A stretch of DNA of 64,000 nt, from assembly GCA_029891345.1 (NCBI GenBank), contig CM057002.1, positions 17,420,295 through 17,484,294 of the forward strand, in the 5' to 3' direction. Numbering within the stretch: position 1 is the first letter of the stretch; every line of letters starts with the position of its first letter. The notes under the pieces were generated by a model. The model was not told the origin of the DNA. It was given only the letters and a program-made list of their open reading frames with translations, and made no database searches. The DNA comes from Dryococelus australis. Lineage: Eukaryota > Arthropoda > Insecta > Phasmatodea > Phasmatidae. Positions 6,036 to 55,735 of the stretch are shown here, in pieces. The translations under genes were made by a program, and so were the position numbers.

Positions 6036-7204
6036 TACTTGAACACCTTAAATTGCGTCAGTGGAGCGTGTTACGTTATGGTTGCTCTTAATACTGGACT
6101 TATTTAAATATTTACGTAGTTAAACTATTGCCACGCGTCTAGCTGAGAGTTCATCTGTCCTCTGCTGGAACGGCATCACCTCAGCGTTGCCGAAGGCTGA
6201 GTACTATCGAGACTTCGGCGGCCGAAACCCATCAGCTGGTCCATTTTGTCCCGTCGTCTACTTGAAGTGTTAAATGGACCTGCACGTTTTTTGTGAAATA
6301 TTTATTTGCGCGTATACGCGTATCTCGCTAAATAAATGTTCTGCAAATACGAATTTTTGTCACAAAAGATAGAAAACAATTATCTATGTCCGTATTATTT
6401 TACTTTTGTTATTTTTAGTATATTCTTGGAGAAAAAAATCCGCGAAGATGGTCAAATTTAGCATTTTTAAAGCTTGCCTGTGCAGTTTCCTTAAGCGGCA
6501 AGAGAAAAGTACAAAGATACGGGCGTAGTTTAATCTGTGGGTTTTCATAGCGTGTAATAAAACCCCACTGTTACATATATAATTTGCACAGTACAGTGTT
6601 AGGACGGAAACGCTGCACGCCTTGCAGTAGGAGCGATGAGACACTGGGCGTGCGTGTTAGTGTCACCCGTATTGTTCCCTCGCTCCTTGACCTTGGCCGC
6701 GCAGCTCCAACTAACTCTTAAGACCCAACTTGAACTCTTCCCGCGCCTTAAATATACAGGCCGTTTGCAAACTGCTCGTCGCGGTGGCGCTTTGCTTCTG
6801 TGACCGCGCTCTTGTTGGATGTGTGCTGGTGCGTTCAGGCAAGCGTCACAGCAAGGGCTTGCCCACACCGTAACAAGGGCTTCAGAAAATTTGCAAGTAA
6901 CCATATATGTACAATATGTAGTGTATACCACTACCATAAACAACGTGGGCCCTATGTGATCTTACAACTCTGTTCAAGTAGTAAACAATTGCTTTGAGAC
7001 ATTTGTATACTTCCTTTAACCAATTTTTATGGAAATTTGATCAAATCCAAATTGGTAGACATATTTTATTAATATAAAAGAGCTTGTCTTTTGAAAATTA
7101 AAATTCAAACAAAAATGAACCGATCCAAACAAATCGTGGGAGTGTGAGTGGGTAGGCGGGTGATTTGGTTGATGGGTGGTTGGGAGAAAATTTCGGTGGG
7201 TAGG
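6036..7204. other. Unassigned stretch with a CpG-richer patch
   Basis: No element ends found. A CpG-richer patch at about 6600-6860 carries short ORFs in both directions without domains. GGTGGGT-rich low-complexity sequence lies near 7140-7210. Confidence 0.4.
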
Positions 7205-7527
7205 TAGTTGTTTGTTTCCTAAATATGTCATGTATCTAAAGCGTTTTGTACTTAACATATAAATAACTTATGTTTGGTGTAATTTAAATTTTACTTATAT
7301 TTTACACATAAATTTCGATATTTAATTTATAACAAATGTAACTTAAAACATTGAGGAAATAGGTGACTTGGCAACGCCAGATAAAAAAAATTTCTCATTA
7401 AAAATATTATTAAATTGAGTATAATTTTCTAAACTAAAGTTAAGCTTTGCACGTGGCGGAGGGATAGCCAGAAAGTAGAACGTTAGCAGGGCTTCAGAAA
7501 AGTTGGAAGAATCCACTGATGGACTAT
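7205..7527 (-). mobile_element. TA-type MITE family C, partial reverse copy
   Basis: It ends in ATGGACTATATT, the complement of TATAGTCCAT, and carries TTTGCACGTGGCGGAGGGAT and GTTAGCAGGGCTTCAG, the family C module. The left side (TTGTTTCCTAAATATGTCAT) corresponds to the inner part of C; the outer left end is not recognisable. Confidence 0.7.
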
Positions 7528-7819
7528 ATTAATCCTGATAAACAATCGACGAATTCAGGTTACCGAAAGACGAGTACAGAAAACAAACGAATACATACTG
7601 TAGCATCCCGAAATTGAGTTTCTACTAACTTACAAATGTTACAATGAAAGGAAAAATTTATCGCATACTAAAACAAAATCTTTACAATCTGTAACTTGCA
7701 TAAAAATTCAACAAAAAAACAAGTAGTTCCCCTCTTTAAATATTTTAGGAACATATTTCATTAAGACTACCTGTCGTAGTTTTCCCTATCATTAGACAAA
7801 ACGACTTTAGGTTAAATTC

Positions 7820-9918
7820 GGTCGCTCTAGACACTGAGGCACAAAGCCACCCAGAGGGCATGCTCTAGCTACTGAGCAACTGCGGCGCCAATTTGGACCG
7901 CTCTTGCCACTATGCCATTGTGACCACCCTAGAAAATGCTCTAGCCACTCAGCAATGTGGCACCTCCTAGAAAATGCTCTAGATGCACTGAACAACTGCG
8001 GCCCCAAATTGGATCGTACTAGCCACTGAGCACAGTAGTCCCCTTAAGGAATGCTATACCCACGGAGCAACTACGAAACCAAGTTCGGTCGCTCTAGACA
8101 CTGAGGTACAGTGGCCCTCAGAGGACATGCTCTAGCCACTGGGTCACTGCGACACAAATTCGGTCGCTCTAGACACTGAGCAACTGCGACCCGGATTCGG
8201 TCGCTCTAGACACTGAGCACTGTAGCCCCCTTGAGGAATGCTATACCCACGGAGTAACTACGAACACTAATTCGGTCGCTCTAGACACTGATGTACAGTG
8301 GCCCTCACAGAGCATACACTAGCCATGTAGCAACAGCGACCCAAATTCTGTCGCTCTAGACACTGAGATACAGTGGCCCTCAGAGAGCATGCTCTAACCA
8401 CTGAGCAAATGCGACCCAAATTCTGTAGCTCTAGACACTGAGGTACAGTGGCCCTCGGAGGGCATGCTCTAGGCACTGAGCAACTGCGACCCAAATTCGG
8501 TCGCTCTCGACACTGAGGCACAATGCCCCCCAGAGGGCATGCTCTAGCTACTGAGCAGCGCAGCCCCAATTTGGGCAGCTCTTGCCACTATGGCATTGTG
8601 ACCACCCTAGAAAATGCGCTAGTAACTGAGCACCATGGCCCCCCCTAGGAAATGTTCTAGCCACACTGAACAACTGCAGCCCTAAATTCGATCGCTCTAG
8701 CCACTGAGCACTGTATCCACCTAGGGTATGTTATAGCCACTGACCACTGTAGCCCCCTTAAGGAATGCGATACCCACTGACCAACTACGACCCAAATTCG
8801 GTCGCTGTAGACACTAAGGTACAGTGGCCATCAAAATGCATGCTCTAGCCACTGAGCAACTGCAACCCAAATTCGGTCGCTCTAGACACAATGAGGTACA
8901 TTGGTCCTCAGAGGGCATTCTCAAGCCACTGAGCAACTGCGACCCATGTTCGGTCGCTCTAGACACAGAGGTACAGTGGCCCACAGAGTGCATGCTCTAG
9001 CCACTGAGCAACTGCTACCCAAATTCGGTCGCTCTAGGCACTGAACAACTGAGACTCAGGCTGTGCGGCCCCAATTTCGGTTGCTCTAGTCACTGAAATA
9101 ATGTGGCCCCCTAGCTAGTGTTCTAGACACTGAGCAACTTCGGCCGCAATTTCAGTCGCTCTATCCACCTAGCCTCTGTGGCCCCAATTTCGGTCGATCT
9201 AGCAACTAAGGCACTACACCCCTCTACGGAGTGCTCTATCCACTGAGGAACTGCGGACCAAATGTAGGTCGCTCTAGCCTCTTAGCAACTCTGCCCACTA
9301 AGTTACTGCGGCCCCAATTTTGGTTACTCTACCCTCTGTGCTTCTGCGGCCCCAAATTTAGGTGCTCTACCCACTGAGAGACTGTGGCCCAAATTTTGGG
9401 TGCTCTACCCACTGAGCTACTGCGGCCCCACTTTTGGTTGCTCAAACCACTGAGCTACTGCGGCGCCACTATACAGTGCTTTACCCACTGAGCTACTGCG
9501 GCGCCACTATACAGTGCTTTACCCACTGAGCTACTGCAACCCCACTTTTGGGTGCTCTACCCACTGTGTGATTGTGGCCCCACTTTTGGATGCCCTACCC
9601 ACTGGGCAACTGTGAACCCACTATTCGGTGCCCTGCTCAGTTTTATACTGCGGCCCTGCTTTTGGGTGCTCTATAGACTGTGCTACTGCAGTGCCTCATT
9701 TTTGAGTACTATACCCACTACACTATTGTGGCCCCACTTTTGGGTGCCATACTCACTAAGCAACTGCGGCCAGACTTTTGGGTGCTCTACCCACAGGGCT
9801 TCTGCGGCCCACTCCTCGATGCTCTACCCACTGACCTATTGCGGTCCCAATTTTGGGTACTCTACCCACTGAGGGTCTGCGTCCAAATTTTGGGTGCTCT
9901 ATCCACTAAGACACTGCT
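7820..9918 (-). repeat. Tandem array of tRNA D-arm-like ~38-bp units, minus-oriented arm
   Basis: About 55 degenerate units of 37-38 bp. Read on the minus strand, each contains a word like GTAGCTCAGTGGGTAGAGCA: GCTC, an 8-base loop, then GAGC, the stem and loop of a tRNA D-arm, with an A-box-like core. From 8040 to 9000 a ~75-bp dimer pattern appears, alternating a unit ending CTGAGGTACAGTGGCC with one ending CTGAGCAACTGCGACC, a simple higher-order structure. No T-arm or B-box follows, so these are not whole tRNA genes. Confidence 0.85.
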
Positions 9919-10988
9919 GCCGCAGTCGCTCAATGGGAAGGGCACCCAAAATTGGGGCCGCAGAAATTCAGTGGGTAGAGCTTCTAATAGTGGGGCCGCA
10001 GTAACTCAGTGAGTAGAGCACCAATAGTGGCGCCACAGTAGCTCAATGGGTAGAGCAACCAAAAGTGAGGCCGCAGTGGTTCAGTGGTTAGAGTATCAAA
10101 TAGTGGGGTATCAACACAGTGGTAGGACACCTAATAGTGGGACCGCAGTCGCTCAGTGGGTAAAGCACACATAAGTGGGGCCACAGTAGCTCAGTGTATA
10201 GAGCACATAAAGGTGAGGCCGCAGTCGCACAGTGGGTAGGGCACCCTAAAGTGGGGCCGCAGTCGCTAAGTGGGTAGAGACCATATGTGACGCCGCAGTA
10301 GCTTAGTGGGTATACTAACCATAAGTGGGATAGTAGCACAGTGGGTAGAGCATCAAATAGTAGGGCCGCAGTAGATCAGTGAGTAGAGCAACAAATTGTG
10401 GGACCGCAGTGGCACAGCGGGTAGGTAACCATATAGTGGGGCCGCAGTAGGTCTGTGGATAGAGCACCCGAAAGTGGGGCCACATTAGCTCAGTGGGTAG
10501 AGCACCTCAAAGTGGGGCCGCAGTAGCTCAGTGGGTAGAGCACCTATAAATTGGGCCGCAGTAGCTGAGAGGGTAGAGCACCTAATAGTTTCGCCGCAGT
10601 AGCTCAGTGGGTAGAGCAACCAAAAGTGGGGCAGCAGTACCTCAGTGGGTAGAGAATCCAAAAGTTGGTCCACAGTCGCTCAGTGGGTAGAGCATCCTAA
10701 TTGGGGCCACAGTGGCTCAGTGGCTAGAGCAACTAAAAGTTGGGTCTATGTGGCTCAGTGGGTAGAGCACCTCTCAGTTGGGGGCTACTGTAGTACAGTG
10801 GGTTGAGAACCCAAAAGTGGGGCTTCAGTGTCTCGGTATGTAGAGAAAATCACAAATGGGGCCGCAGTGATTCAGTGGCTAGAGCAACCAAAAACCGGGC
10901 TGCAGTGGCTCAGTGGTTAGAGCGCCGAATATAGGGCCACAGTGGCTAAATCGATAGAGCACCCAAGTGGGGAGCAGTGGCCCAGTGT
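9919..10988 (+). repeat. Tandem array of tRNA D-arm-like ~38-bp units, plus-oriented arm
   Basis: About 28 units with the same D-arm-like core as the preceding block, now on the plus strand, e.g. GTGGGGCCGCAGTAGCTCAG followed by TGGGTAGAGCAC. Successive cores at 10493 and 10531 are exactly 38 bp apart. GGGG, GTAGCTCAG and GAGC positions resemble the 5' half of a tRNA-Ala-like sequence. The right edge decays at about 10988. Together with the opposite arm it forms a large inverted arrangement. Confidence 0.85.
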
Positions 10989-10989
10989 A

Positions 10990-12387
10990 TTAAGCTTAAT
11001 TTCAACATATCCGATTACATGCAAATTACCAGTAGTACCAACTCATCTGCGATTAAGCCTAATTTGAACACCAATCTCAAACTTAACCGTCTTCTACATA
11101 CTAATTGCAGCATTCTGATTAACGTTACCTTTATGTATAAGAATAGTCTTCCAACAAATTATGTCTTGCCATTGTACTTCAGACAAATCCGCAAATGTCG
11201 GATCTTTGGCATCATGAGCCTCCCTAAATAAACAGAATTCCAAAAGTCCACTACCAGCTTTAGTATTAATACCCTATATACCAAATCGGTGTATATTAGT
11301 CAAAAGAACGCAACTTTCTTCAACGATGGTAACCTTTCGACACCATGTAGTGTCGTGTTTATCAACATTATAGTTAACACGCCAAATATTACGGTACACA
11401 TTTCGTTAAAATAAGACTTTCTTGTGGGATGTTGTCTTCGTGGCAATTTGGACATTATCCCTAATGTTGCTCGCTTACTTTCGCAACATCAAACCTAAGG
11501 TTTGGTTGCAAGGCAAGATTTGGTCTACAGGGTATAACAGCTAAAACTCTAAGTAGACTTCGGGAGTTCTTGTTTTTTCCGTAAATGTCACAATGCAGAT
11601 AACCCTGTCTTAAGTGGATCCTCGTGATATAGTTTGTTGGAAGACAGATTCAGTAAATGAATGTGTTTTTAATCAGACAGCTGTAATTAGCATTCATTCA
11701 TTGTCTGTTCTGTTTTCTTGTAAGAAGATGAAGTTCAATCTTGGAGATGAAATTTCGATTTATAGGAAGTTAATTAGTACGACTGGAAATTTGCATATTC
11801 ATGGTCATGTAGAGCTTGTGCATAACGCACAAACGTCATCAATAAAGTTTGTTTGACCGAAATTGGTTAAGTGGTTTTCGTTTGATAGTGGCATGACCTC
11901 AACACCAGCGTCAGCATTAGCATACTGAATCTAACGTGGTGTGCCGCGTTCACCTATGTATAAGCTTGGGAGATAACATCTGCGATGTTTAAGTCCGTGA
12001 CCTTGAGAAAACAGCTAATCCTATCTCTCTGTTTCCGCTATGACTGATATCATGTCGTCCATGCCTCATGCGACCAGATCTATGTTATAGTTCGATTATA
12101 TATTATTAATTATTAGTGGCTGATAGGGAATGCTGGTTGACATATTTAATTAATAATATGGTGTTAGTGATGAGATCTCTGATTCTAGAAAATGTAACCT
12201 TGACTTAAGAGGCTTTAGAGAAAAAATTAATATACAATTTAAATATTGGTAATAATTTTTCGTAATATGTTAAAGTTATGATAGTAATGGAAATTTACCA
12301 TATTTCATAACTTTTTCGTTGTTAGTTTACTCAGAGTGTTCGTTTAAAGGGATATTCTAAAAATTTTAGCATTGGTTCTATGCAACT
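10990..12387. other. Unassigned AT-rich stretch
   Basis: Unique-looking sequence with short ORFs (for example 10977-11231 and 11614-11856) that show no recognised domain, signal peptide or conserved motif. No element ends recognised. Confidence 0.45.
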
Positions 12388-12388
12388 A

Positions 12389-12820
12389 TACGCTGTTCAC
12401 GATAAAGCGAGCCCTTTTTAAATCAACCTTAGAAAAATGTCACTGCCCCTGCCTGCATATATTTTAACGGGTGTCCTGAGTGTCAAGCGCCCGGTAAAGT
12501 TGGAAACGATTTGGGGGGGGGGGGGGGATACTTCCATAACTTAGTGTCGAATAAAGAGGGTTAGGTAACCATTTGTGATAATTAAAATTATTTCTTACTC
12601 TTTCTGTCCTTTTTAACGCCTCAGTGTGTAAAAATGAGCATATTTATAAAACATTTATTTTTCTAATAAATTCGCAGTTTCACTTGACCGACACGTGAAT
12701 AAAGTGATGAGTGCCATGGCAATGTTAAATTTACATAAGACGTAAGAATACACAACGTGCATGTGAGTAGATCTTAAGCAGAGCTTTCAAAAGTGCTCAT
12801 TTTACCGTGAGCAGTCTATA
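12389..12820. mobile_element. Long TA-type MITE, family B
   Basis: Ends CGCTGTTCACGATAAAGCGA and TCATTTTACCGTGAGCAGTC, about 430 bp apart, both next to TA. The inner word GCGCCCGGTAAAGTTGG and the TGAATAAAGTGATGA stretch are shared with the copies at 28252 and 55030. A G homopolymer near 12511-12528 lies inside. The TIRs have several mutations, so this is an older copy. Confidence 0.85.
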
Positions 12821-14010
12821 TAAGTAATTACGAAGAACACATCTCGAGTAATGGTCGGTAGGAATTATTTTTTGAGATATATTTAATTTTAAGTTGCGGG
12901 GATATAAGGGTTTTAACTAGATGCATATACAGTTTTGTTTTATGTGAATGACACACTACACGTAGTTACTTTCTGATGAACAGCAAACATTGTCTCTAAA
13001 TTTGATCTCGAGCTAAATTTGATCTCAATGCGGGATGGAGCTTTTCATTAGAGACATTTCGAAATATATTTTACATATGTCCACAAAGAATAGCAAGTAT
13101 ACATTTCTAAGCAGATATAATACACGATAAGATCATCATGTGGTTGGTAGAATACTGCTCGTATGAGTGTGTTGCGAATAGATGTGGAACTCTCGATTAT
13201 ATACGCCTGGAGAATAAAATGAATGCGCCAAACAACTACAATATAGTGGAATTTGAAATCAAATTTATAGGTGAATGGTTTGTAGGAGGTGAGATTGTTT
13301 TAGCACAACTATTTGTTATATCTATTGCTCTATACTAAATAGAATACCATGGGTGTGTACAGGTAGTGGGGGCGAGATGAATTTGATTATTTATAGCGAA
13401 TGCTCTGTACTAAATAGAGTGTCATGCATGTGGTTACAGGAGATGTAAAATGTTTGTCTATAGGAGGGGCGATGAAATAGAATAATTAATGGAAACTATA
13501 ATATTTCTGTCTATCTTCTGTAGTTATTACTTTAAAATATATGATGCGTACAACACAGGTATTAAATTATATTGATTTGCAATAGTTTGGGGTGGGAATG
13601 ATTTAAATTTCGGGAATTGGAAATATGTCACATCTTACCACTCTCACGAAAATCTCCTGTGCTATAGTATCATTTGTGTACACTAAGAGTAAATATTCTC
13701 TTCACTCACAGCGGTAATGTTTACACGTGCTTTAATGCGAGTGATAAAAGTTCAAAAATTGGTATGATGTATTAACTAATATTGCATGTTTTTGATAAGA
13801 AATTAGCGGTTTGATCGCTGCTCCGCTATAAACTTAAGCGTTATGTTTCCTGTGTTATGATATAGCAAGGGAATGCTGGAGGTAAAATTAGTTTGATAGT
13901 AACTTAATTAAGTTTCATACTTAACTAATTCGCATGTGTACGAAGTGTAAATGGGTGTTTCCAATTATCATTTTATGATAGAATTTAGGGGAAAATGATT
14001 GTGAGCAGGG
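12821..14010. other. Unassigned stretch with an imperfect duplication
   Basis: An imperfect direct duplication of about 80 bp occurs around 13325-13460: TGCTCTATACTAAATAGA and TGCTCTGTACTAAATAGA, each followed by a similar CATG-containing tail. No genes recognised. Confidence 0.4.
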
Positions 14011-14470
14011 TATACCGGGTGAGGCATTTAAATCAGGCCACCTTAATAAATCGGCCACTTGTAACGATAGAGGAAAATGTTTCAGACAAACGTTGTTTGG
14101 GGGAAAGGGGCCATTTTGTTACGTTAACAAATAGGCGTGTTGTAATCCGAGGGGTGACGGAAATATGGGGGTCAACTGCGGTATGTTAAATGTGACGATG
14201 TGTTTTAATGTTCACATTTATAGTACGTGTGACACATGTTTGCATTAATATTGTGATGAGCTGTTCAAAGGTGTGTAATAAAGTATGTCATCCCATTTAC
14301 AATACCGACGTTGACCCCCATAACTCCTTCACCCCTCGACGTAACACTAGACTCTTAACGTCACATTATAGCCCCTTTCACCCCAAATAACGTTTATCTG
14401 AACCATTTTCCTCTATCTTTACAAGTGGGCGATTTATTAAGGTAGCCTGTTTTAAATGCTTCACTCTGTA
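14011..14470. mobile_element. Long-armed inverted-repeat element (MITE-like)
   Basis: Two arms of about 180 bp are inverted copies. The left arm begins TACCGGGTGAGGCATTTAAA; the right arm, read on the minus strand, begins TACAGAGTGAAGCATTTAAA. Both continue with ACCTTAATAAATCG, ACTTGTAA, GATAGAGGAAAATG, AAACGTT and ATGGGGGTCAAC in the same order. By eye identity is about 80%. A loop of roughly 100 bp separates the arms. Non-coding; TA at the ends suggests a Tc1/mariner-like origin, but the superfamily is not proven. Confidence 0.8.
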
Positions 14471-16688
14471 TTTATTCAGCTCGCATATTTGATAACAGTT
14501 TACCTAAGCAAATAGGTATATGAGTTGGGATGAATATTCTATAATATCCCCATGCGAGATGGTAATTGTTTAACTATATTTGCATTGCAAAGGTAACTTG
14601 GTATAGTGTGTAGTATGTAAACATCCCGGCATTCGCCTGGAGTGATCTGTGAAATCATCGGTGGAAAAAGAAAGAAATGTGAATGTCTTGGATGCAAATC
14701 GAAGTTGCGTCCATCCGAAAACGGGTTTAAATATAGTATTTACTCTCACATGTTAGACTTGTAAACATAAACATTGTTTATTTCTTGTTTGTAAGATGTA
14801 TATAGAAAAATTTCCACTGACAAGTCAGCGCATTTGCCACATTTTAAGATTCAAAACAATACAACTTGACATAAAAATAATTCAAAATCAATTGCAATTA
14901 AAACCATTTAAACGTATGCTTGACGCATAATTAATTCTATGAAGATTTGCAGATAAAAACACGATAAAACCACAAGAAATGTTCAAAAATACTATGTAAA
15001 TATAATGACCGCAATTAAGACTCTTATAGGGAATATTAAAAACAATAACATATAAAGGGCCTAGTTTAGTATAATACAAAATACAAAGGCACAAAATACC
15101 CCATAAAAATGATATGACGATTCCAAAAGGCACGAGACCCAATTTCAAAAGTACAAATTATGCGTGCCAATATCAGTTATTTCATGCAACACCTGCGTGC
15201 ATATATTTAATGTATTGGGCGTGAGCCTAAATGTACTGCCCAAAGGTTAGACGTAATGACGTAACCACTAAGTTACAACCCAGAATGGGTGTCAAATAAG
15301 TGCAATATTCATTTTGCAAGAAAATTGAGGTTTTTTTCAATTTAAAACAATACGTGTCTCGTATGATATGCGCTAATCCTAAGCAACTTAATGTTACTTC
15401 CAAACTGTGCACACGAGTTTTTTGTTAACATGTGAATAAAAGGGCAATGGTTTCAAAATATTCAAGACTCTCAAACGGGCGACCACAAATGCTTTCAGAT
15501 GTTAAAAACATGTTTCAGTTTACAATACGAATGTAGATTTCTTAACATGTTTTTCCACAATATTCAGTGTAATAAACTTCGCTATAAGTGCACGTTGCAA
15601 TAAGGCACCGGAGCATAAATTATAACTTTAATTAAACACATAAATGCTTCCCCCATAAACTTCAATTAAAATGAATGCAAACCCGCGACCATCATGCCCA
15701 TCAAAGGGTGTTTACAAATAAAAGTACACTTTAAAATTACAGTTGACCCGTATGATTAGACCAATTTACGGCGGCACCATTATTAAATTATTAAGGCCGA
15801 ACAAAACGCCGTAATTACTAAAAAAAATCCTATTAAATCTAAAATACAAAGACGTGGACACCTTTAAAAGAAGACGTTCTTCTTATACGAGGCAAAGTGT
15901 GGACAGCGTAAACAGCTGTTAACCTTGAGGCCGGGCCAGTCAAACAGGACAGCGGCGATCATTGCAAAACCTTTGAAAATAATACTTAAATTTGTAAGGT
16001 GTCATTCCAATAGCATACCACTCAAAATCCTACTACTACAGCCGCTCACCACCAAAACTAGCCACTTGCTACTGCACGAAAGTTACTAAAAAAAATCCAA
16101 CACTCATATTACTTGTACACTGCCCAACACTCACCGTATTTTACAGTCGTTTCTCACAATTCTTAGTGCTCACAAAATTATAAATCCAAAAGAAAACTAT
16201 TTCAATGCTTTAGCACAGGATTTACATTTTTCAAGAGACGTCAATCTCCATAACGTTCGCTACGTAGTTTGGCGAAGAGGTGCAGTGCTGGCGTAGTTGC
16301 CGTCGTCGGAAGAAGTGTTCATTAAATCAAGAGGGTCGCAGCTCAAAATCTTACCAGTAATAACATGACCTCTTTTGACCAATATAAATCTAGTGACGTG
16401 CCGGGTAGGGTACAAGGGGGCGGGGAAGAGAAAGGAGAACGGAAGGGTAACCAGGTTGGTCTTGGAGAATGTCTCTGCGCTCTATAAACGGTGGCTAACA
16501 TTGGAACTACGGCGAATGCAACCCCCCGCCCAAAGCAACCCTAACTTGAAGAAAACTTACAAGTCCAAAAGTTCCCTGCTCTGGTAACCCTGGCACAACG
16601 GTAACAAACACATACAGGTGGAGAACGCTCAATTAGTAGAACATCATCAGTAGAACACTGCTCTTCGAGTGAAGTCATAGTCGGTACA
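14471..16688. other. Unassigned stretch
   Basis: AT-rich, without recognised genes. A G-rich patch with GGGGGCGGGGAAGAG near 16417-16431 and TGACGTG near 16396 could be promoter-like but is weak. An upstream LTR for the following retroelement could lie here; I could not delimit one. Confidence 0.35.
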
Positions 16689-18051
16689 TCCCAGAAGTAT
16701 AATCAGCCTAAATCAATTAACAATCGTAAAGTGCCTGAGCAGCATCGTACTTCATCAGGTAGTTTCTTTGTTAGGTCCCATACAGAAAAGTATTGTCTTT
16801 GTAAGGGTGTTCATACCATCCACAGATGCTCTGAATTTGTGCAATAGGACCCTCAGGCATATTTTTCAATGGCAAAAGACAAATGATTATGTATAAACTG
16901 CCTTCAAGCCACTCACTAAGTGAAGAGTTGCCCATCTAACAAATCTTGACGATTTTGCAATGCTCGTCATAACACGATGCTGCGTTTCCCATCAGATAAA
17001 CCCACTACCGCAGCGGCACAGTCAGCACAGGACGGAGTGCCTGTTGATACATCTTCAAATAAGGACAGCACCCTTCTGCTGAAATGTTATACACAGCTGT
17101 TGCCAATTTTCAGGATGTTTGTGGAAATTGCCAGCCTGTTAGAGTTCTGCTTGACTCCGGATGCCAATCCAATTTCATTGCTGAATTATGCCTGTCTCGA
17201 TTTGGTATCAAGCCTCGAAACTTATCAATTCCACTTTATGGGCTTTCCCACGCCCTACTGACTAGTGCGAAAGGTGTTGCCTCGTATATCATAACAACTA
17301 GCGGAAGGAAGGGGCCACGTCTGCTCATTGAGGCCCTAGTTTTGCCACAAATTACTCAGATATTCCTTCGACATTTCTTAAGCCAGATGCTTGGAAACAT
17401 AGACTGAGAGAAAATTGAATAAGATATTTGTTTGAATATGGCAAAATATATATTTAGTAGCCCTAAGAAAATATAGTGTTGAGTGAACAAAATTTGAAAA
17501 GCAACAAAATTACTTTTGTTCATGTAACAAAATATGTGTTTGAATAAACAAAATCCCTGTGTTGGGCTGAAAAAAATTAGACTGTCAACTAAATATTTTA
17601 TTGAATCAACTGTATAAATTTGTTTGGCCACTCATTTGACTGCCTTTGTGCGAAAATACAGCTCGAGAGTTTGTTTGTATTTTATGTGACAATTACTATA
17701 ATAACAGAGTTTGTTAGTGCATCTATTGATGCTTTACAATCGTATAAACACAATAATAAAACAATGCAACAAGAAACTAACCAGCAAAGCTGTAAAACTT
17801 GAAGTATTGCTTTCCACATGTTGCCCAATATTTGCAGTATATCTATTTAAAAGCTTTCCGGCGTCATCAGTTGCCACACATTCCAGAAATACTCTGAGGA
17901 AAAACTGTGCAGGCCTGGCCTTCGGGATTATCAAAATCGGCCTGAATGTCCCCCATAAATGTTCTGGAAATCCTCTTTGGAAAAACGGCGCAGTTCACGT
18001 TCAGAGCTGAAAATGGCATCATCAGACGATGTGTTGGGTGTTATCGGGTGT

Positions 18052-20020
18052 TCAGTTGTGACAAAGACATTGAAACAGAGTTTCATTTATTATTTTCTCA
18101 GCGACCAGCATTTGGTGTTTTGGGAGGATGCATAATTTTATAGCTACAGATTTTCCAAACACATAGAAACGATCATCTGCGACAGAAGGATTTTTGAAAT
18201 GTTCCTTGATCGTTAAAAGAACCTCATTGGTGAGAGAATCTTGTTCTGCTGCCTGTGTATTACATTTGTTGGGTCGACGATTGCGGTTACTCATCCCAGC
18301 CGGTTGCTCTGAAATAGGACTGTCTAGTGGTGAAGGTTCCGATAAAACAGTATTTTCATTGTTGGCATTATCGTGTGCAGCTCCATTATGTACAGAGTGT
18401 TCCTGAAATAATATTCCGAATACATTAATGTATATTGTAACTACTTCTAGTCTCGAACTTTGATTCATTACTAACCAGTCCGTTTAAACTATTAACTCGT
18501 GAACTATTTGTGGCGTAATGCCGCTTGTATACATATTGTATGTCTATTGCTTACAATTACAAAGGACGGCACAGCATGGTTCTACTGGCAACAGTTGATG
18601 CTAACTTTCAGTTCGTCATGTGCGATTTTGGTACAAATGGCAGGATTTTAGATGGCAGTGTTTTAAAGAACAAGGTTCTTTGGAAGACTTGAAAACAACC
18701 AGTTAAACATTCCCAGAGAAGATACAATCAGGAACTCGTCTACCGCTATGCCTTGTGTATTTGTTGTGGGCGATGCTTTGACGTTACGGGTAGATATGAT
18801 GAAACTTTTCAGACAACAGAGCTCATTTCCCTTGAACGTAGAGTAAATAATTACCGAGTATCACGAGCCAAACACATTGGTAAAAATGTATTTGGCATTC
18901 TGGCGTCACGCTTTCGAATAGTTAATACAGCAATAAACCTACATCCCAAAAACATCGAACCCATTATTATGGCCACTTGTGTATTGCACACATTTTTAAT
19001 GAAATCTGTACATATTTTGTATTCACCCGCGGGATGTTTTGATAGGGAAATTACAGATGGTGGGATTATAAATGTAGGATACGATACTGAGAATACTCAT
19101 GTGTTAGGGCTGAGCCGAAATAATCCTGGCAACACACCCTGTACAGCTAAAATGTGAGGAGCAATTTTATGCATTATTTTGTGAATGAGGACCAGGTTCC
19201 TAGGCAACTTAATTTCATTTGAGCTTCAGTGACATCATACTTTGTAAACAAAGGGTTTCGTATACTACATACATAAACTATATCTAGGCCATACTTTTAA
19301 GCACGGCACATGATCCATACGTAACCTGTATACTGTGTTTAAACAAATACGTGCTCTCGAACTTATTCAATGTGTTTTCCTGGAATCCCCAAAACCAATT
19401 TTGATCCCCCTAACCCTATCCAACGTTAAAATACTGAAACATGTATTTACCTCACTGCCAGTGTTGTCTTCGTCATCATCACTGTCTATGTTGCTCCGAG
19501 GACGTCTAGGAGCGTCTTGATCCTCTAGAAACCTAACGAACAGCAGACAAACAGAAATAATAACCAGCAAAAGTAACGTCTATAAATGACATTGCGAGCT
19601 TAACTATTACTACATATCCTTGTCAGATGGTGTGGTGTTTTTATCATCTATCCATATAGACATGGATACAGTATAAGTACAGAATAGCACTATTTACATC
19701 CAATTCTGAAAAGAAAATAAAAGTCACTCACTTTAATAAACTGAAGTACCACAACTTCGGTTCGTATATTTAGCCACTACCTGCTCCCGGCTTCCGTGAG
19801 TCATTCAATTTTTTGGTCTCCTTCCTGTATGCACTTCTGATGTTAATTTTTTTACAACAGTCTCTCTTATAGCATTCGGCTCAATGAGTTTTAATATCGT
19901 AATTAAACGTGAGTAGGCAGCTTCTTTTTTCGTTCTGTCATGGTAATAATTACTTCTGACCAGCCAAAGGCATTATTCAGATTCGTACGTTTTGATAAAG
20001 TATTCAAGAACTTCGCGAGA
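18052..20020 (-). pseudogene. Harbinger-associated MADF DNA-binding protein gene, three exons, broken
   Basis: In Harbinger elements a Myb/SANT-like (MADF) protein partners the transposase in DNA binding and nuclear import. Exon 1 (about 20020-19732) encodes a MADF-like region: EVLEYFIKTYESE, CLWLVRSNYYHDRTKKEAAY, IEPNAIRETVVKK, RSAYRKETKKLNDSRKPGAG and YEPKLWYFSLL. Exon 2 (19532-19451) encodes FLEDQDAPRRPRSNIDSDDD and more acidic sequence. Exon 3 (18402-18052) ends with a BESS-like tail, RFYVFGKSVAIKL, LPKHQMLVAEKIINETLF. Splice sites are GTGAGT and TTCGTTAG for intron 1, GTAAAT and TTATTTCAG for intron 2, and the frame is kept across both. Exon 1 has in-frame stops after YESE and before YEPKL, and a frameshift near the RSAY segment. 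The start codon is not determined. Confidence 0.8.
18537..19157 (+). pseudogene. Harbinger (DDE_Tnp_4) transposase, C-terminal part, broken
   Basis: The nuclease of PIF/Harbinger elements. Near 18537-18700 the plus strand encodes YNYKGRHSMVLLATVDANFQ then FVMCDFGTNGRILDGSVLKN; the Asp of CDFG is the expected second catalytic residue. Around 18750-18830 a second frame gives PCVFVVGDALTL. From 18840 a third frame gives NNYRVSRAKHIGKNVFGILA then SRFRIV and a CVLHTFL stretch, the conserved C-terminal block. In this block the usual catalytic Glu of the EN-FGIL motif is Lys. The N-terminal half and first catalytic Asp are not found. It lies inside intron 2 of the MADF gene on the opposite strand. 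Confidence 0.85.
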
Positions 20021-23000
20021 TATGATTCGCCAGGTGGCAGCAACTGAACTGTATTGGTCACGCCGGTGGCACCCACACACATACACACACACGCACAGTT
20101 CGGCCTGCGCAGTCCAGAACTGAGCAGGCTTAACTGATCGTTTTTCCATTCTTCTCCGGCGGCCTGTACAGTCCATCATGACTGAGCAGTTCTTTACCAC
20201 ACACCCTGCATATATTCCGAAGACCAGGCCTGCACAGTTTTTCCTCAGAGGATTTCCGGAACGTGTGTGAAGCCCTTAAAACGTAGCGCTGGACGCAGGT
20301 GATCTAAGTTCGAAACTAGGTCGAACTTATAATATTTTTTATATCGGCCCAAACTGTTTAATGTACATGTAGCCAAGCAAATATTTAGTAGTTGTATTAA
20401 CCAAGCCTTACAGTTTGGGCAGCCAAATGAGAACAACAAAATAATTTGGTTTCAGCAATAAAATATTTCATTGCCCCTATACAAACAAATAATTTGGTTG
20501 CACCAAACAAATCTTGTTTGATTCAACAAAACATTATTCTCAGTGTGTCAATTGCCATTGATAGGTTGCTAGGTTGGGTGCTAATGGTACGTGCCCAGAT
20601 TAACACAGATTTGCAGCCAGGTATTTCGTCCTACTTCATTTCAAATGTAATGCAGACCACTTTGGATGAAGCGTTGAAAATTTTTTGGAAATTGAAGAAC
20701 TGCCTGCGGTCCCAATACCACCAGCCCCAGAAGATGTGTTATGTGAAAATATGTTCATTAAAGGCTGCACTCTAGCTGACACAGGGTATCAGTACCAATT
20801 GAATCTCCCGAGCCAATATTGGGAGATTCAGCCTCTTTTCCTCTGCATCGTTTTCACCCTTTAGAGAGCCGGCTGAGAAAACAACCAGAGGTGAAGGCAG
20901 ATTTAATTGCCTTCATGTTAGACTACCTGGCAAGTGTGAACGCATAGTATATTCCACACCATTGCGTGCAAAGGTCAGGCCACACTACCGCCAAGCTACG
21001 CATAGTGTTTGATGCTTCGTCAAAAACAGACTTGGGTGTGTCTCGTAATGATGTTCTTTTAACTGGTTCGAAGTTGTAGACAGACATTGTACTGGTTTGC
21101 TTAATTTCCGAATTACACACATTGTTTTCACTGCAGATATTATACAAATGTATCGACAGTTCATGGTACATCCCGAGCATCATGACTATCAACGAATCTT
21201 GTGGAGAGAGTCAGAGGAGTAATCAGTTGAGATTTATCGGTTTAACACTGTCACAGGGTTTGCTCACCTCCATACTTAGCATTAGGACACTGAGACAGGT
21301 GGCACAATATGAGTTGAGTAATTTTCCTGATGCTTCTAAAACACTTATAACGATCACATATGTCGATGATGTGGTTACTGGTGCCAATGACCTAGCCACT
21401 ACCCTCAAACTTAGACGAGACCTTTAGAAACTGCTGCATTATGGGGGGTTTCAGCTTCGAAAATTCTCAAAAAAAAAAAATCCAGCCTTGCTTGAAGACT
21501 TGTCACCCCAAGGTGTCCAGTATTATGGTGAAACATATTCTTTTGGCGAAGACTCCTGCAATAAGTTATTAGGCTTATGCTGGAACCCCAACACTGATGC
21601 CTTCTCATATAACTTGCAACCCAATCCTTCAGTGTACACAAAATGAGGCATTTTATCAGATATTGCCAGAATATTTGACCCATTGGGATGGCTTGCACCA
21701 TTGACATTATTTACAGAACACCTTATCCAGTTACTCTGGTTTGCTCAAATAGTATGGGATTCCCAAACTCCGCCTGATAAAAGTGCCAAATGGAACAAGA
21801 TTCGAACAGAGTTACCTCGCTGCTCAGCCATCTCTGTTCAGTGTTGCATCGCCCACAACCTCTCAGATGCCACTTTTGAATTGCATGGTTTCGCTGACAG
21901 TTCGGAGAAAGGCTACACTCTTGGTGTGTATCTTCGAGCTATATCTAAGCATGGTATATGACCACCACTCATTTACTATTGGCTAAAACTAGGGTAGCTC
22001 CATTGAAGCGAGTTACTCTTTCAGGTTATAATTGCGTGTCACTGATTTGCTTTCTAGATGTTTACATTTGCTGCTCGACACCCTTACACCTGTCTTACAT
22101 TTAGACAGTATATATGCTTGGTCTGCCTCATCTGTTGCACTGTCCTGGATAAAGATGTCCCCTCATGTTTGGAAGACATTTGTCGCAAACCAGGTGACTC
22201 AGATACAAGAATGCACCACGGTAGACTGGCGGCATCAAGTGGCAAATGAAGATAACCTTACTGATTGTGCTTCTCGAGACCTTGCACTAGGACAGCTAAG
22301 AGACCACCCACTTTGGTGGTCTTGACTGTCGTGGTTGCATCAACCAAAGAGCGAATGGCCGCAGAGCAATCATGTCATTCACAGAACCCACTGTTAATAA
22401 TGAATGCAATATCCTTGTTATGTCAGCAATCTTAGAAAAGTAATGTCTTTTGGAAACTTTTCTCCAAGTTAAAAATGTTTAAATGAATTGTTGCCATTTG
22501 TGTTCGAGTTACGAAAAATGTTCATCCGAGATAAACTCACATTACGACCAAGTCTTGTCTGATGAAATGCAGCAAGTATGAATTATCCTTATCAAGGCTA
22601 CACAGAACCAGGCATTCGCAGATGAAATGCAAAGATTGGCTGACCAGCAATTCTGCTCACCTGCCACAGCAAAATTATCTCCTTTTGTCGATGCAGAGGG
22701 AATCCTTAATGTAGGCGACAGACTTCATCATTCAGACCTAGCGTATGATGAAAAAGCCTTCCAGCCAGTAGAGTATGTCAAGCTAGCCCTACCTCACCTC
22801 TTGTGTTAATTACGCTGTGCCAATCCCAATTGCTATGGCGCAAAAAGAAAACCTCGCATACTGCAGGCATACATTCGTCTTTTCGTATGCTTTGCCACAA
22901 AGGCAGTGCACTGGGAGTTTGCTTCTGATTTGTCGACTGAGACCTTTCTTACTGCATTCAGGCATTTCATTACATGTCGTAGACAGTGTACTCACTTGCA

Positions 23001-23989
23001 CAATGACTGTTGTACACAATTTGAAGGGGCTAATCCTCACTCATCAAAGCTGCAAGGGTTCTTGGCTGACAACAAGTGTCTTACTGACAAGTTAGTGAAA
23101 GACAAGATAACTTGGCATTTTAATTCGCCATCAGCCCCACACTTTGCAGGACTCTGCGAGGCAGGGATAAAATCTACTAAGTCTGTGTTGAGCAAAGTGG
23201 TGGGCAGTCATCTACTGTCGTATGAGGAAGTGTCCACGGTGCTGACTCAAATTGAAGCTATACTTAACTCTAGACCACTCTGTGCCATTTCCCGTGACCC
23301 AAATGACTTATCTGCCCTGACTCCTAGTCTTTCTTTGTCTCTTGGTCCTTCTCAAGTGTTACTAGAACAATACTTCACCAAGGAACCTACAAACTGATTG
23401 AACAGGTGGTCACTAATTCAACAAATTCATCAGTCTTTCTGAAAACGCTGATATACTGGATATCTGCAACAGCTTCAGCCCAGGGATAAACGGCTGAAGA
23501 ACAATGACACCCAGAAAATTGGCAAATTGGTCTTTAATTAGGGATAACAACCTTCACCCCTCCGCTGGCAACTTGGGTGCATCACTGAGATACTACCTGG
23601 GTCAGATGGCATTGTGCGAGTTGCCCAGGTCCTCACTCAACATGGAGTCCTCACTCATCACGCAGTCAAGTTGTGTCCACTACCAGTTAATAAGTTTGAA
23701 GTGTGCTCACTTCAAGGTGGGCAGGATGTTTAGACCTGTGTATTTCGTGTGGTACGTATTATAGACAAACTTTTAAATTTGTTTTGCCCACTCACTCTTT
23801 GAGGACGCCGTCTTGTTCGGCATATTAACCAAACAGACAAATTAACAAAAAAGCGTTATTTGTGCGCAATATGGCGTCCATTCTCGTCGTCCGATGCCCA
23901 GACAGTAATTGTTTTGCAAATTCTCTCATTCTTACACCTATACGAATAAAAAAGAACAGATACTAAAATTAATAATTACACTACACTAT

Positions 23990-25522: not shown

Positions 25523-25814
25523 GCAAGGTAATCTCGTGTCTGCTGTGAACTGTACCCGATTGTCTCCTAGTTTACTCCCCAGCCATTAAAACCTAGTTCT
25601 GGAGATGACGTCACACGAAATGTGTAATAGGCAATAGGTGCCTCACCACCTATAACTTGTAATTCCTTCTAATGGAGCGGATACAGTCAGAATCACTGTT
25701 TTCGCCCGTCCACATACGTTCCGCTTTTCCGCTTGCAACACAAAGGAAATTGGCAGAAGATTTTCAGGAAAACAACGTGGGAAACTGGTGAGTGTAGACC
25801 TAGTTACTCAGGAC

Positions 25815-26369
25815 GTTTCAGTAGATTGTACAGGAAATACTGAGCGTGGTTCTGCAACCAGTGAGTGCAAACAACCTGCTTGAGGTTCGTCATTACTAAG
25901 AGAACGTTGCAAAGGTGGTGGGGCAAGGCTGAGGCCATGAGATAGCGGCAGGCCTATGTCAGCCAGGTCTGCTGGAAGGAAGTCTACTTTGGTGAGATCG
26001 TTTCAGTAGATTGTACAGGAAATACTAAGCGTGGTACTGCAACCAGTGAGTGCAAACAACCTGCTTGAGGTTCGTCATTACTAAGAGAACGTTGCAAAGG
26101 TGGTGGTGCAAGGCTGAGGCCATGAGATAGCGGCAGGCCTATGTCAGCCGGGTCTGCTGGAAGGAAGTCTACTTTGGTGAGATCGTTTCAGTAGATTGTA
26201 CAGGAAATACTGAGCGTGGTTCTGCAACCAGTGAGTGCAAACAACCTGCTTGAGGTTCGTCATTACTAAGAGAACGTTGCAAAGGTGGTGGTGCAAGGCT
26301 GAGGCCATGAGATAGTGGCAGGCCTATGTCAGCCAGGTCTGCTGGAAGGAAGTCTACTTTGGTGAGATC
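25815..26369. repeat. Tandem triplication of a 185-bp unit
   Basis: Three head-to-tail copies begin at 25815, 26000 and 26185 with GTTTCAGTAGATTGTACAGG. They differ at only a few bases, e.g. CTGAGCGTGGTTC against CTAAGCGTGGTAC, so the expansion is recent. The unit ends TCTACTTTGGTGAGATC, which resembles a splice donor but has no coding context. No internal open frame is shared as a protein. Confidence 0.95.
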
Positions 26370-26542
26370 GTTTCTATCAATTGGTCAGATATCACCCTGT
26401 CTTCCGAATACCACCTATGGGCCTCTACGTTATCGTATCCTAATATAACTTACTGCCCCAAACAGATATGCAACCTGAAGTAACTCCGCCACACAACCAG
26501 GAAGAGGACGTTCCTGCTTTTCCGCTTCATCAGCGTATTATT

Positions 26543-26789: not shown

Positions 26790-28250
26790 CGGCAAAAAAA
26801 TTGAGAAGGTAGCTCGACAGAATGACACCATTTTCCCCTGGCTGTGCCCATTCACCGCAGGTTTTTGGTAAGACGCGTTTGACAGGAGTATACCTGGTGA
26901 TTTTCTGAATGCTCCAGAAATTATAAACAATCTTTTTATACCACAAAAGAAGTGATTTCTTTGTGGTCCATTCTCTTCTTTCAACCTCGTCTCAGGAACC
27001 AGATGCTAGCCCTGTTCCAAACTGTCGTTGCATCCTTTTCTCGGAAATATCAGTAGAGTTGCACAGTAGGCACTTGCAAACAGGGGAAAAAATCTGCTGC
27101 AAGCATCTTCTCTCTTTCAGTCCAAGTTTTTGTACCAAACTGGCGTCTGGTTTTCTCAGTAATAATGCGTAAATGGCCCTTGGACTTAACAGTGATTATT
27201 GAGGCATATAGATTAAAAAGCTGGTCTACAGTGAAACCATGTTTCTCAACAACGTTGGTTAAAATTATTTTTTAAAATTTTTGATGCTTCTACTTTATTA
27301 GAGGCCATGATTAGAGAAGGTGGTTTATTGTAGCAATTATTTATTCGCTAGGATACCCGGCAGTTCTATTTCATTATTGGCTGGCATGAAGGTATGAAGA
27401 TACTATCTCATTTCTTTGGGCCAATGAGGACTCTGATACTCTCAAGCAGAATGTTTGTTTTTGGCCTGAAAAGAATTTTGTCCAATCAAAACTTGATTAA
27501 CCATGAAATGATAGTGTTTTCGAAAATATGTTGGCTTGAAAAACTTTCCAGATTTTCCTTTATCTAGAAGCAAGCAAATTTACGATATCAGGCCACATTT
27601 GAAATATAGTCTGGTTTCGTTCATTTGTTTATTTCTCTTTGGTTCTGGTTACAGGAAACCGATCGCGTAATGTAGTGTGTGTCATATGTTTCCAGTATAG
27701 CTCTACAAATTTATTAGTAATTCATTTTTAATCCGGTTTTGGCTCATAAATGCTAGGCACGGTTGTAGATAGATGTACCTAAAGAAATTAATTGTTTGTT
27801 TTCGAAAAGTTTAAATTCTTGGCTATTTTAATAACTGTACCGTATTTATTTTTTTTTTCAATTTTTATATGGATGGGGATCTTATTATACTCTCGGATCA
27901 AACGGTACTTTTATGTGATCGTTTTCATTATATCTCTGAACTCAATTATATAGCATTTTGAGCTTTGGTGAACTAATACTGAAATTTATATTTACTTCGT
28001 ATTACGGATAATACTAGCTAGCGAGATGACAACTGAGTTCCTATAACCTAGGGTAATTTCCTTATCTCTGGATATATTCCCCCTCTGTGGCTTTACACTG
28101 AAGCCAGCAGCAGACAGTCCGGTCCGCTTAGCAAACCCCAGCAACAACGGCTTTTGTCCTGATTTTTTTTTTTTTTCAGGTATCTACTATGGCTTATTCG
28201 AGGTTTCTTCCCACTGTTTCGTTGTTTCCTAAATATGCCATATAACACTA
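26790..28250. other. Unassigned AT-rich stretch
   Basis: No genes or element ends recognised. T-runs occur near 27849 and 28166. Weak similarity to exon-like sequence around 26990-27170 rests only on a short ORF without domains. Confidence 0.4.
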
Positions 28251-28251
28251 A

Positions 28252-28671
28252 CGACTGTTCGCGATAGAGTGAGCACTTTAGAAATGAACCTTAGAAAAAA
28301 GTCACTGCACCTGCATGGATATTATATTTTAACAGGCGCACTGAGTGACATTCGCCCGGTAAAGTTGGCAACGATGGATGGGAAGTAGTTCCATATCTTA
28401 TCGTCAAATAAAAAGTGCTATGTAACCGCTTGTGCTAACTTAAAATTATTTATTTCCCTTTATGTTTTTTAATGCAACGAAGTAAATGAGCAGATTTGTA
28501 AAGTATTTACTTTCGTTATAATTTAACAGTTTCATTTGACTGATACGTGAATAAAGTGATGAAGCCCATGGCAATGTTAATTTTACGTAAGGTGGAAGAA
28601 TATACAACGTGTATTAAATTAGATTTTAAGCAGGGCTTTCAAAGGTGCTCATTTTACCGTGAACAGCCTAT
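28252..28671. mobile_element. Long TA-type MITE, family B
   Basis: Ends GACTGTTCGCGATAGAGTGA and CTCATTTTACCGTGAACAGC. Inside are CGCCCGGTAAAGTTGGC and GAATAAAGTGATGAAGCCCA, shared with other B copies in the same orientation as 12389. About 420 bp. Confidence 0.85.
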
Positions 28672-28689
28672 AGCATGTTTTACTTACCT

Positions 28690-32380: not shown

Positions 32381-32741
32381 CCCCTATACTAGACACGTGT
32401 CAATTTTCCCTATACTAGACACGTTTCCGTTTCCCCTATACTAGACACGTGTCCGTTTCCCCTATACTAGACACGTGTCCGTTTCCCCTATACTAGACAA
32501 GTGTCAATTTTCCCTATACTAGACACTTGTCCGTTTCCCCTATACTAGACACGTGTCCGTTTCCCCTATACTAGACACGTGTCCGTTTCCCCTATACTAG
32601 ACACGTGTCAATTTTCCCTATACTAGACACTTGTCCGTTTCCCCTATACTAGACACGTGTCCATTTCCCCTATACTAGACACGTGTCCGTTTCCCCTATA
32701 CTAGACACGTGTCCATTTCCCCTATACTAGACACTTGTCCA
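32381..32741. repeat. 26-bp minisatellite carrying CACGTG
   Basis: Fourteen units of CCCTATACTAGACACGTGTC plus CGTTTC. The palindrome GACACGTGTC holds a canonical E-box CACGTG in nine units; the others have CACTTG, CAAGTG or a broken site. Units with CAATTTTC recur at units 1, 5 and 9, suggesting duplication in four-unit blocks. Confidence 0.95.
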
Positions 32742-32744
32742 TTT

Positions 32745-35555: not shown

Positions 35556-36408
35556 TATAGTCCGTCCACTTTTATTTACAACTTTTCTGAAGCCCTGCCG
35601 AGGTTCTACTTCCAGGATATTAATCCGCCTCATGTAAACAAAGCCTAAACAAGTATATAGGCTGTTCACGGTAAAATGAGCACTTTCGAAAACCCTCCTT
35701 AAGATCTACTTGTATGCATGTTGTGCATTCTTCCTCCTTATGTAAAATTAACATTCCAGTTGTCCTCATAACTTTATTCATGCGTCGGCCAAGTGACTCT
35801 GTGAAATAATTAGAAAAGCTAATATTATAATATCTGCTCTTTTTTTACATTTTGATGCTTCAAAAAAACGAAAAGCAAAATAAATAATTTAACTGTTCAC
35901 AAATGTTTACCTTGCACTTTTTATTCGACGTTAATATATGGAACTACTTTCCCTCCATTGTTACCAACTTTACTGAACGCATGTCACTCTGTGCAACCGT
36001 TAAAATATATGCAAGCAGGGACAGTGACTTTTTTCCAAGGTTTATTTTAAAAGTGCTCACTTTATCGTGAACAGCTTTTAGAAAATTACACCAAAGGGAG
36101 ACAGCACCGGATTCGTGTGCACTTAATGTAATATTATTTTGCATAAGAACTCTTTATTACTAGGTATTAACCAAACCCCATATTTCTCCCTGTTTTATTC
36201 ATATTAATTATAAATACAATATTATATTTTACATATAAAATATAAGTAAAAGTGCAATTAAACTAAAAATTAAGTACTTTGGTGTGAACACAGGTATAAA
36301 ATGCTTATAACTCGTGACATATTTATTAAATAACCAAACACGTCATAGATGGGGTGATTTTTCAAAGGTTTGATTCAAAATGGGTTTTGGAAACCGCGAA
36401 TAACCATA
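35556..36408 (+). mobile_element. TA-type MITE family C, interrupted by family B
   Basis: Begins TATAGTCCGTCCACTT, carries GAAGCCCTGCCGAGGTTCTA, is interrupted at 35657-36079, and resumes with GAAAATTACACCAAAGGGAG to end near AAACCGCGAATAA. Without the insertion it would be about 430 bp. Confidence 0.8.
35657..36079. mobile_element. Long TA-type MITE, family B, nested in family C
   Basis: Ends GGCTGTTCACGGTAAAATGA and CTCACTTTATCGTGAACAGC, flanked by TA. It is placed inside a family C element, so B transposed after that C copy. Orientation is opposite to the copies at 12389 and 28252. Confidence 0.85.
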
Positions 36409-46515: not shown

Positions 46516-46931
46516 AGACTGTTCACGATAAAGTGAGCACTTTTGAATTCAACTTTAGAAAAAAATCACTTCTCTTACCTGCATGTATTTTAACTAACGC
46601 ACTGAGTGACATACACCCAGTAGAGTTGGTAACGATGGAGGGAAAGTAGTTCCATATCTTAACTTCAAATAACAAGTGTTAGGTAACCATTTGTAATAAC
46701 TTATAATTATTTATTTCGCTTTTTTTATGCATCAAAGTGTAAAAATTAGCAGATTTGTAAAATATGTACTTTTCTAATAATTCCACAGTTTCGCTTAACT
46801 GGCACATGAATAAAGTGACGAGGATCATGGTAGTGTTAATTTTACATATGGAGAAAGAATACATAATATGCGTATAAGTAGATCTTAGGCAGAGCTTTAA
46901 AAAGTGCTCAGTTTACCGTGAACAGCCTATA
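46516..46931. mobile_element. Long TA-type MITE, family B
   Basis: Ends AGACTGTTCACGATAAAGTG and GCTCAGTTTACCGTGAACAG. Inside, CACCCAGTAGAGTTGGTAAC and GAATAAAGTGACGAGGATCA. About 415 bp, with A/T just outside both ends. Confidence 0.85.
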
Positions 46932-48613: not shown

Positions 48614-49035
48614 TATAGGCTGTTCACGGTAAAATGAGAACTTTTGAAAGCCCTGCTTAAGCTCTACTCGTATACACGTTGTGTGTTCCTCCGCCTTATG
48701 TCAAATGAACATTGCCATGGGCATCAGCACTTCATTCATGCGTCGGTCAAGTGAAACTGTGAAATTATTAGGACAGTAAATATTTTCGAAATCTGCTCAT
48801 TTTTTCACTTTATGCATTAAAAAAGCAGAAAGTGAAAGAAATTATTTAAGTTATCATAAATGGTTACCTAACACTTTTTAATTCAACGTTAATATATGGA
48901 ACTACATTCCCCTCCATCTTTACCAACTTTACTGGCCACATGTCACTCAGTGCGCCCGTTAAAACATATGCAGACAGGACAAGTGACTTTTTTTCTAAGG
49001 TTGATTTCAAAAGTGCTCACTTTATCGTGAGCAGG
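48614..49035. mobile_element. Long TA-type MITE, family B
   Basis: Ends GGCTGTTCACGGTAAAATGA and CTCACTTTATCGTGAGCAGG. Contains AAGCCCTGCTTAAGCTCTAC and GTTCCTCCGCCTTATGTCAA, the same module found in family C. Same orientation as the copy at 35657. Confidence 0.9.
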
Positions 49036-49246
49036 CTTCAGCTGTTTGCATTTTGCTTGCGACAGTGTAGGCTGATGGGCTCTTGCTTCGGAAAGGCTTG
49101 GAAGTTGCGCTTCATCTGAGCTTCATCCGACAATCCATACTGTGTTTTCATCAGTCATGCACTGAACAACAGAAATGCGGAGCTTTCCTGACACTCCAAA
49201 AGAGTGTTTATGAAAATACGTACACATACCATGCATGAGTTTAAAG

Positions 49247-54975: not shown

Positions 54976-55029
54976 AGTTGCCGTTTACTAGATTGTACGA
55001 CAACTGGTAAGTTTGATGGAAACGTATAT

Positions 55030-55452: not shown

Positions 55453-55735
55453 TGCCAGTTAAGTTGGCAGCGAATTACGAGGACTGATTCAGAAGTCATG
55501 ACAACTATTGTCTATCTCCCGAAAATGTTCCAACACAGGAAATGTACTATGTACAAGTGAAAGTGTACGACAAGTATGTAGTAAAGGTGACCCCATATGA
55601 AGTATGGATGCAGGAATGTCCGGCAAGGAACACAGACAAATATAGCTGCTTGAAATCCCCATCTAACTGATGTATTCTCGTACATCCTGTATACGCTCAT
55701 TTGAATGGGTACGTATCGTACGTGTACGAGCTGAT

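Follow-up and report, generated by a model that had tools for sequence, protein, structure and literature searches.

The 64-kb window, i.e., the whole stretch of insect DNA that was analysed, contains at 7816-10995 an array of 85 tandem units of approximately 38 bp, as delimited by wrap-around profile alignment. Tandem Repeats Finder reports a period of 38 at 9289-9921 and 9919-10963 and periods of 75 and 150 at approximately 8166-9044, and the two methods are concordant on an array at about 7816-10995. In the orientation of the right-arm consensus, which was used for the strand calls of all units, 56 units are on the minus strand (7816-9920) and 29 on the plus strand (9919-10995); the left-arm count was obtained after removal of a spurious partial unit of 15 bases (9921-9935). 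Within each arm the units are arranged head-to-tail and one head-to-head switch separates the arms (Table 1). A sequence-only reading made earlier had described about 80 units at 7820-10988 that change direction at 9918/9919: the coordinates and the switch (at 9919/9920 in the alignment) were right and the unit number was close to the 85 counted. A tandem array of units of approximately 38 bp is thus borne out. The GC content is 53% at 8001-11000. On the left side it is 35% at 7001-8000 and 44% in the kilobase before that, and on the right side it is 37.5% at 11001-12000.

Table 1. Blocks of the 38-bp array and copies of the dispersed repeat of approximately 430 bp (window coordinates).
Feature	Position	Strand	Remarks
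Distal left block	7816-9257	-	38 units, mainly arranged as 75-bp A/B dimers; A-type loop ending in GTGTC
Two shortened units	9258-9312	-	between distal and proximal left blocks; wrap-around alignment
Proximal left block	9313-9920	-	16 units of approximately 38 bp, right-arm family; inter-block identity 0.728
Head-to-head switch point	9919-9920	.	unit position 1 starts both arms, two bases in common
Right arm	9919-10995	+	29 units, consensus GCCGCAGTAGCTCAGTGGGTAGAGCACCCAAAAGTGGG; final unit truncated
Repeat of approximately 430 bp	12385-12822, 28247-28675, 35654-36081, 46508-46934, 48602-49044, 55029-55466, 63912-64000		last copy cut by the window end

The surrounding DNA contains several dispersed repeat families around the open reading frames, as revealed by self-BLAST. 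A Pfam search covering 10 of the 73 stop-to-stop open reading frames returned one clear Peptidase_A17 domain of a Pao retrotransposon (E 7.2e-25) and one DUF4817 helix-turn-helix domain (E 7.8e-10), while two further frames have matches below the cut-off and six have no match. The clear Peptidase_A17 match at 21647-21961 and an aspartyl-protease match below the cut-off at 17063-17407 fall into a region, 17063-23397, that appears to be a broken Pao-type retrotransposon and presumably a single element. Fragments of this type would suit an insect, perhaps one of the cockroach, stick-insect or grasshopper branches. The repeat of approximately 430 bp occurs in both orientations, with full-length pairs about 77-82% identical. 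The stretch 14012-14471 is self-complementary (76% identity between it and its reverse complement) and foldback- or MITE-like. Two further tandem repeats were observed, a 26-bp array of 14 copies with 91% matches and a 104-bp higher-order period (32381-32744) and a 185-bp unit in three copies with 97% matches (25814-26374).

The array consists of three blocks, of which the right arm and the proximal left block form one family and the distal left block a separate dimeric A/B subfamily. Pairs of right-arm units have a mean identity of 0.732 and pairs of proximal left units one of 0.726, and comparisons across these two blocks give 0.728, whereas the distal units are only 0.65 and 0.64 identical to the two (distal set of 39 units, with the shortened unit starting at 9258 and the unit starting at 9019, and without the shortened unit at 9286). 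Within the distal block identity is 0.73 at lag 2 vs. 0.63 at lag 1. The left run of units pointing one way, as described by the sequence-only reading, thus holds for orientation but not for uniformity, its distal part being an array of 75-bp A/B dimers. An ancestral subunit of 19 bp was considered and is unconvincing, with a lag-19 identity of 0.27-0.31 vs. a mean of approximately 0.26. A symmetric gradient from centre to edge is weak (Spearman 0.41, p 0.028) and, as one of several looks at the data, it carries no argument.

The units are decayed, with a mean mismatch of 12-21% to the consensus of their own block. Among all 85 units an exact GCTC is found in 31, GAGC in 52, both in 21, AGTGG in 45 and GTA in 27, and TA, GCTC, AGTGG and GAGC are jointly present in six; all four D-stem pairs are intact in 27. 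The core of GCTC, loop and GAGC, with AGTGG in the loop and GTA before it, that had been ascribed to the units is therefore a property of the consensus and not of most units.

For comparison with tRNA the unit was modelled as tRNA positions 1-26 followed by a 12-bp linker, and 14 points were given for the tRNA-invariant bases, which are textbook knowledge, and the D-stem pairs. As control, 5000 dinucleotide-preserving cyclic shuffles were scored with every rotation and strand allowed. The right-arm consensus and the overall left consensus both carry 14 of 14 features, each matched by a single shuffle, and the distal B units reach 13 (10 of 5000 shuffles). Elsewhere in the window, the three satellite units that were tested score 9-10, similar to their own shuffles. 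The consensus was found to share 20 of 26 bases with E. coli lysT, with 18 of 19 at positions 8-26, and 18 of 26 with E. coli valT, with 16 of 19 at positions 8-26. The unit at 10593-10630, picked because it lies near the consensus and trimmed to unit position 1, was compared with the 4227 Rfam families. With a threshold of E 10 no family except tRNA was listed (15.0 bits at a gathering score of 29, E 0.25), and the same holds for a two-unit stretch (E 1.7). The tRNA D-arm layout noticed in the sequence-only reading is thus present in the consensus, and the resemblance over these 26 bases suggests, but does not prove, a tRNA-like ancestry of the unit.

The likeness could be a product of chance, in which case the array would be a GC-rich minisatellite of the ordinary kind, with GCTC-AGTGGGTA-GAGC in its unit by accident. 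This is rather unlikely given that tRNA-like scores are shared by the right-arm, overall left and distal B consensus sequences, that the other satellite units tested do not rise above their shuffles and that Rfam lists tRNA alone for the one- and two-unit queries and no family for a 33-bp satellite of the same window. It draws on the shortness of the resemblance, on the distal A units, which reach only 11 of 14 features and are equalled by 552 of 5000 shuffles, and on a best E-value of 0.25 that came from a unit chosen as near-consensus. A full tRNA fold is not recognised: ARAGORN finds no tRNA gene in the 64-kb window, the whole-window Rfam scan yields no match at the gathering score, and at E up to 10 it yields eight matches, the best on an AT microsatellite, with tRNA not among them.

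A further point in favor of chance is that the D-stem shows no covariation. In 82 units (without those starting at 9019, 9258 and 9286) 252 of 320 cells are paired vs. a shuffle mean of 252.2, and a MAFFT alignment that covers 43 of the 45 units in the right arm and the proximal left block (all but 10108 and 10972, the latter truncated) has 77.9% paired vs. 77.8%. When the stem is shifted by 1-3 columns pairing falls to 30-44%, which is expected because the stem was taken from the consensus. At one stem pair a C:C mismatch is present in 11 of 36 distal units, and therefore units lacking that pair were amplified. The distal set comprised 37 units (without 9258 and 9019) in the stem, feature-score and site-rate analyses. 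The covariance test of the GCTC/GAGC stem had been proposed by the sequence-only reading, which named variation without compensation as one half of the set of observations that would speak against it, and such variation is what was found. RNA of the right arm, read in the D-arm orientation, is no more stably folded than shuffled sequence (z -0.72, four of 20 shuffles as good), and from this and the uncompensated stem a selected RNA hairpin at the D-arm is rejected. For 900 bases of the distal left block read in that orientation the fold is better than in shuffles (z -4.1, none of 20 as good), which may originate from the A/B dimers or from the tail and is not assignable to the D-arm. The 12-bp tail is paired in 98 of 133 cells in the distal block (22 of 2000 shuffles as high). 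An excess of tail pairing is also seen when all 82 units are taken together (11 of 2000), and it is absent in right-arm and proximal units.

With fair rather than high confidence the array is explained as a local, ageing and decaying minisatellite in transposon-rich, insect-like DNA, with a probable seed in the 5' half of a tRNA or SINE, with a strand switch and with no selection visible on RNA structure. The probable seed was a 26-base 5' end, from either a tRNA gene or a tRNA-derived SINE, joined to a 12-bp linker. The 38-bp and 75-bp patterns are observed; they would have arisen as the unit expanded through slippage or unequal exchange and as part of the array was amplified again in dimeric form. 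At a unit boundary the strand changes, which leaves two stretches of one family in head-to-head order; snap-back template switching is preferred here over random inversion because both arms are in equal unit phase. Point mutation would later have caused the decay, without visible selection on RNA structure. At present the array probably has no role, and a transcript crossing 9919 would form double-stranded RNA as a by-product. Among the three options raised by the sequence-only reading, a relic of tRNA- or SINE-head amplification is the most plausible one.

The unit order of the two arms is not mirrored around the switch: no peak is seen at shift 0 (identity 0.71) within a range of 0.66-0.73 over shifts of -15 to 15. 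This rules out a recent palindromic duplication and is compatible with an old one. The array is local within the window, since no second copy is found in the remainder of the 64 kb, the one match there spanning 10 bases at E 8, and one further site, at 42989, having 6 mismatches in 23. A search for the tandem D-arm pattern in viral and in prokaryotic contig collections gave no matches in either, which has little bearing on insect DNA.

Satellites of a likely related origin are described in the literature. The SINE-derived satellites (sSats) of squamate reptiles are tandem repeats of part of a tRNA-derived element, as the array probably is, and each locus is reported to comprise between a few and hundreds of units, with alternating di- and trimeric patterns (PMC10702118). 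However, their units measure approximately 70-290 nt and the SINEs from which they derive are known, whereas the unit of the array has 38 bp and only the part resembling tRNA positions 1-26 is recognised; the array also reverses direction, in contrast to sSats as they are described there (PMC10702118). Tandem repeats said to contain tRNA-like sequence are also OAX/satellite I of Xenopus, PolIII/TAN of Cynops, Rana/polIII and Hy/polIII of Hydromantes (PMC10702118), those of Xenopus and Hydromantes being tabulated in a further source as well (PMC9659126). In contrast to the 38-bp array, the three of these amphibian satellites with a stated length have units of approximately 200-360 nt; PolIII/TAN is described as transcribable in vitro, and SINE origins of all four were judged inconclusive (PMC10702118). 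Searches of the open-licence literature for a satellite with a 38-bp tRNA-half unit and for words of the unit sequence returned no description. The statement in the sequence-only reading that such a satellite is not something recognised thus stands for the unit itself, but satellites made of SINE parts and inverted arms of tandem repeats have already been published. If the tRNA origin holds, the array would be a very small example of a satellite born from a pol III gene head, in which monomeric, dimeric and inverted stages lie next to one another within 3.2 kb. It would then aid in understanding the growth and strand switching of such arrays; on its own it opens no new mechanism.

Unit positions 14-16 and 20-26 have a mismatch of only 0.03-0.09 in all four blocks (A and B units counted apart), compared with 0.175-0.27 outside positions 14-26, and the core CAGTGnnTAGAGCA is found with at most one mismatch in 58 of 85 units. 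This constancy is a point against the decaying minisatellite, as neutral decay predicts none unless older subfamily variation accounts for it. The better-than-shuffled folding and tail pairing of the distal block, and a tRNA-like part of no more than 26 bases, likewise count against this explanation. The core could be a candidate DNA-binding site or it could reflect a subfamily structure of older date. Strong agreement of site rates is confined to the related pairs, right arm and proximal left (rho 0.66) and A and B (rho 0.63), and for the four cross pairs of blocks rho is 0.12-0.36; because of this weak agreement between the two subfamilies selection on the core is not claimed.

A constant core within inverted arms of short tandem repeats is also what a remnant of a foldback-type DNA transposon would show, the core then being a transposase-binding site in repeated form; a comparable case is reported from Galileo, whose terminal inverted repeats (TIRs) contain tandem repeats with secondary transposase-binding sites (PMC3573991). 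In the foldback element Tetris, TIRs with internal tandem repeats of approximately 220 bp are reported to have seeded satellite arrays (PMC4079207), and in foldback-like Galileo the two TIRs of one copy can differ in repeat number (PMC3573991); satellite growth from the arms and unequal arms would thus have precedents. However, both elements are described with defined TIRs, with target-site duplications of 7-10 bp in most intact copies, with repeats of approximately 210-220 bp and with several to many copies (PMC4079207; PMC3573991), whereas no other copy of the array occurs in the 64 kb, though other dispersed families recur. Furthermore, its arms of 2.1 and 1.1 kb are unequal, with a different subfamily in the distal left block, no terminal domain beyond the repeats was recognised, and a middle domain is absent. 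The outer ends are unmatched, as 7780-7835 and 10965-11020 share only two 5-base inverted matches and no exact direct repeat of at least 5 bp, a comparison by which a mutated duplication would be missed. A repeat fragment lies just left of the array, at about 7208-7528, and self-BLAST of the window with five arrays masked revealed many dispersed repeats but no recognisable larger element bracketing the array. A foldback origin is therefore regarded as distinctly improbable. The array stands near the SINE-derived satellites (PMC10702118) in its likely origin and near foldback arms (PMC4079207) in its layout, and its observed features fall short of the full definition of either as given in these sources.

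RNA of 9470-10369, which crosses the switch, is predicted to fold at -534.8 kcal/mol, whereas 20 shuffles average -327.8, and 320 of its 344 pairs connect one arm to the other, so that the long double-stranded RNA anticipated by the sequence-only reading for a transcript across the switch is supported by prediction. Near the switch 336 of 458 aligned positions are identical (73%) over the first 471 bp of the arms; the hairpin follows from arms that are inverted and this similar, and it is no evidence of use. On the D-arm strand the exact box A TRGCNNARYNGG occurs at 11 places in the array, more than expected by chance, since 200 dinucleotide shuffles contain 0.45 copies on average and 3 at most; the remainder of the 64-kb window has none. 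Box B (GTTCRANNC) is absent from the array on both strands, which makes binding of TFIIIC unlikely. G18-G19, which is invariant in tRNA, is GG in 31 of 85 units and constitutes the two least conserved loop positions, T16, A21 and A26 being the most constant positions of the unit.

That the array is functional, either by binding of TFIIIC and recruitment of pol III at the box A sites or by a switch-crossing transcript yielding double-stranded RNA and small RNAs, is very improbable: the 11 box A sites, the 320 inter-arm pairs predicted in 900 nt and the scarcity of T-runs of four or more (4 in 3180 bases of the D-arm strand) are set against the missing box B, the few units retaining G18-G19, conservation peaks that lie elsewhere and a hairpin that is automatic in an inverted arrangement. 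Even less probable is a combined role as hairpin-RNA locus, in which an inverted array of tRNA 5'-half units would keep CAGTGnnTAGAGCA as a DNA-binding site and a double-stranded transcript of kilobase length would enter a small-RNA pathway.

The window contains a second short satellite with a word resembling a pol III box. This 33-bp array at 50754-51278 has 15.9 copies with 98% matches, and two of its units compared with Rfam gave neither tRNA nor any other family. Its consensus unit holds GTTCGATTCC, which resembles box B and the T-loop and may be a coincidence.
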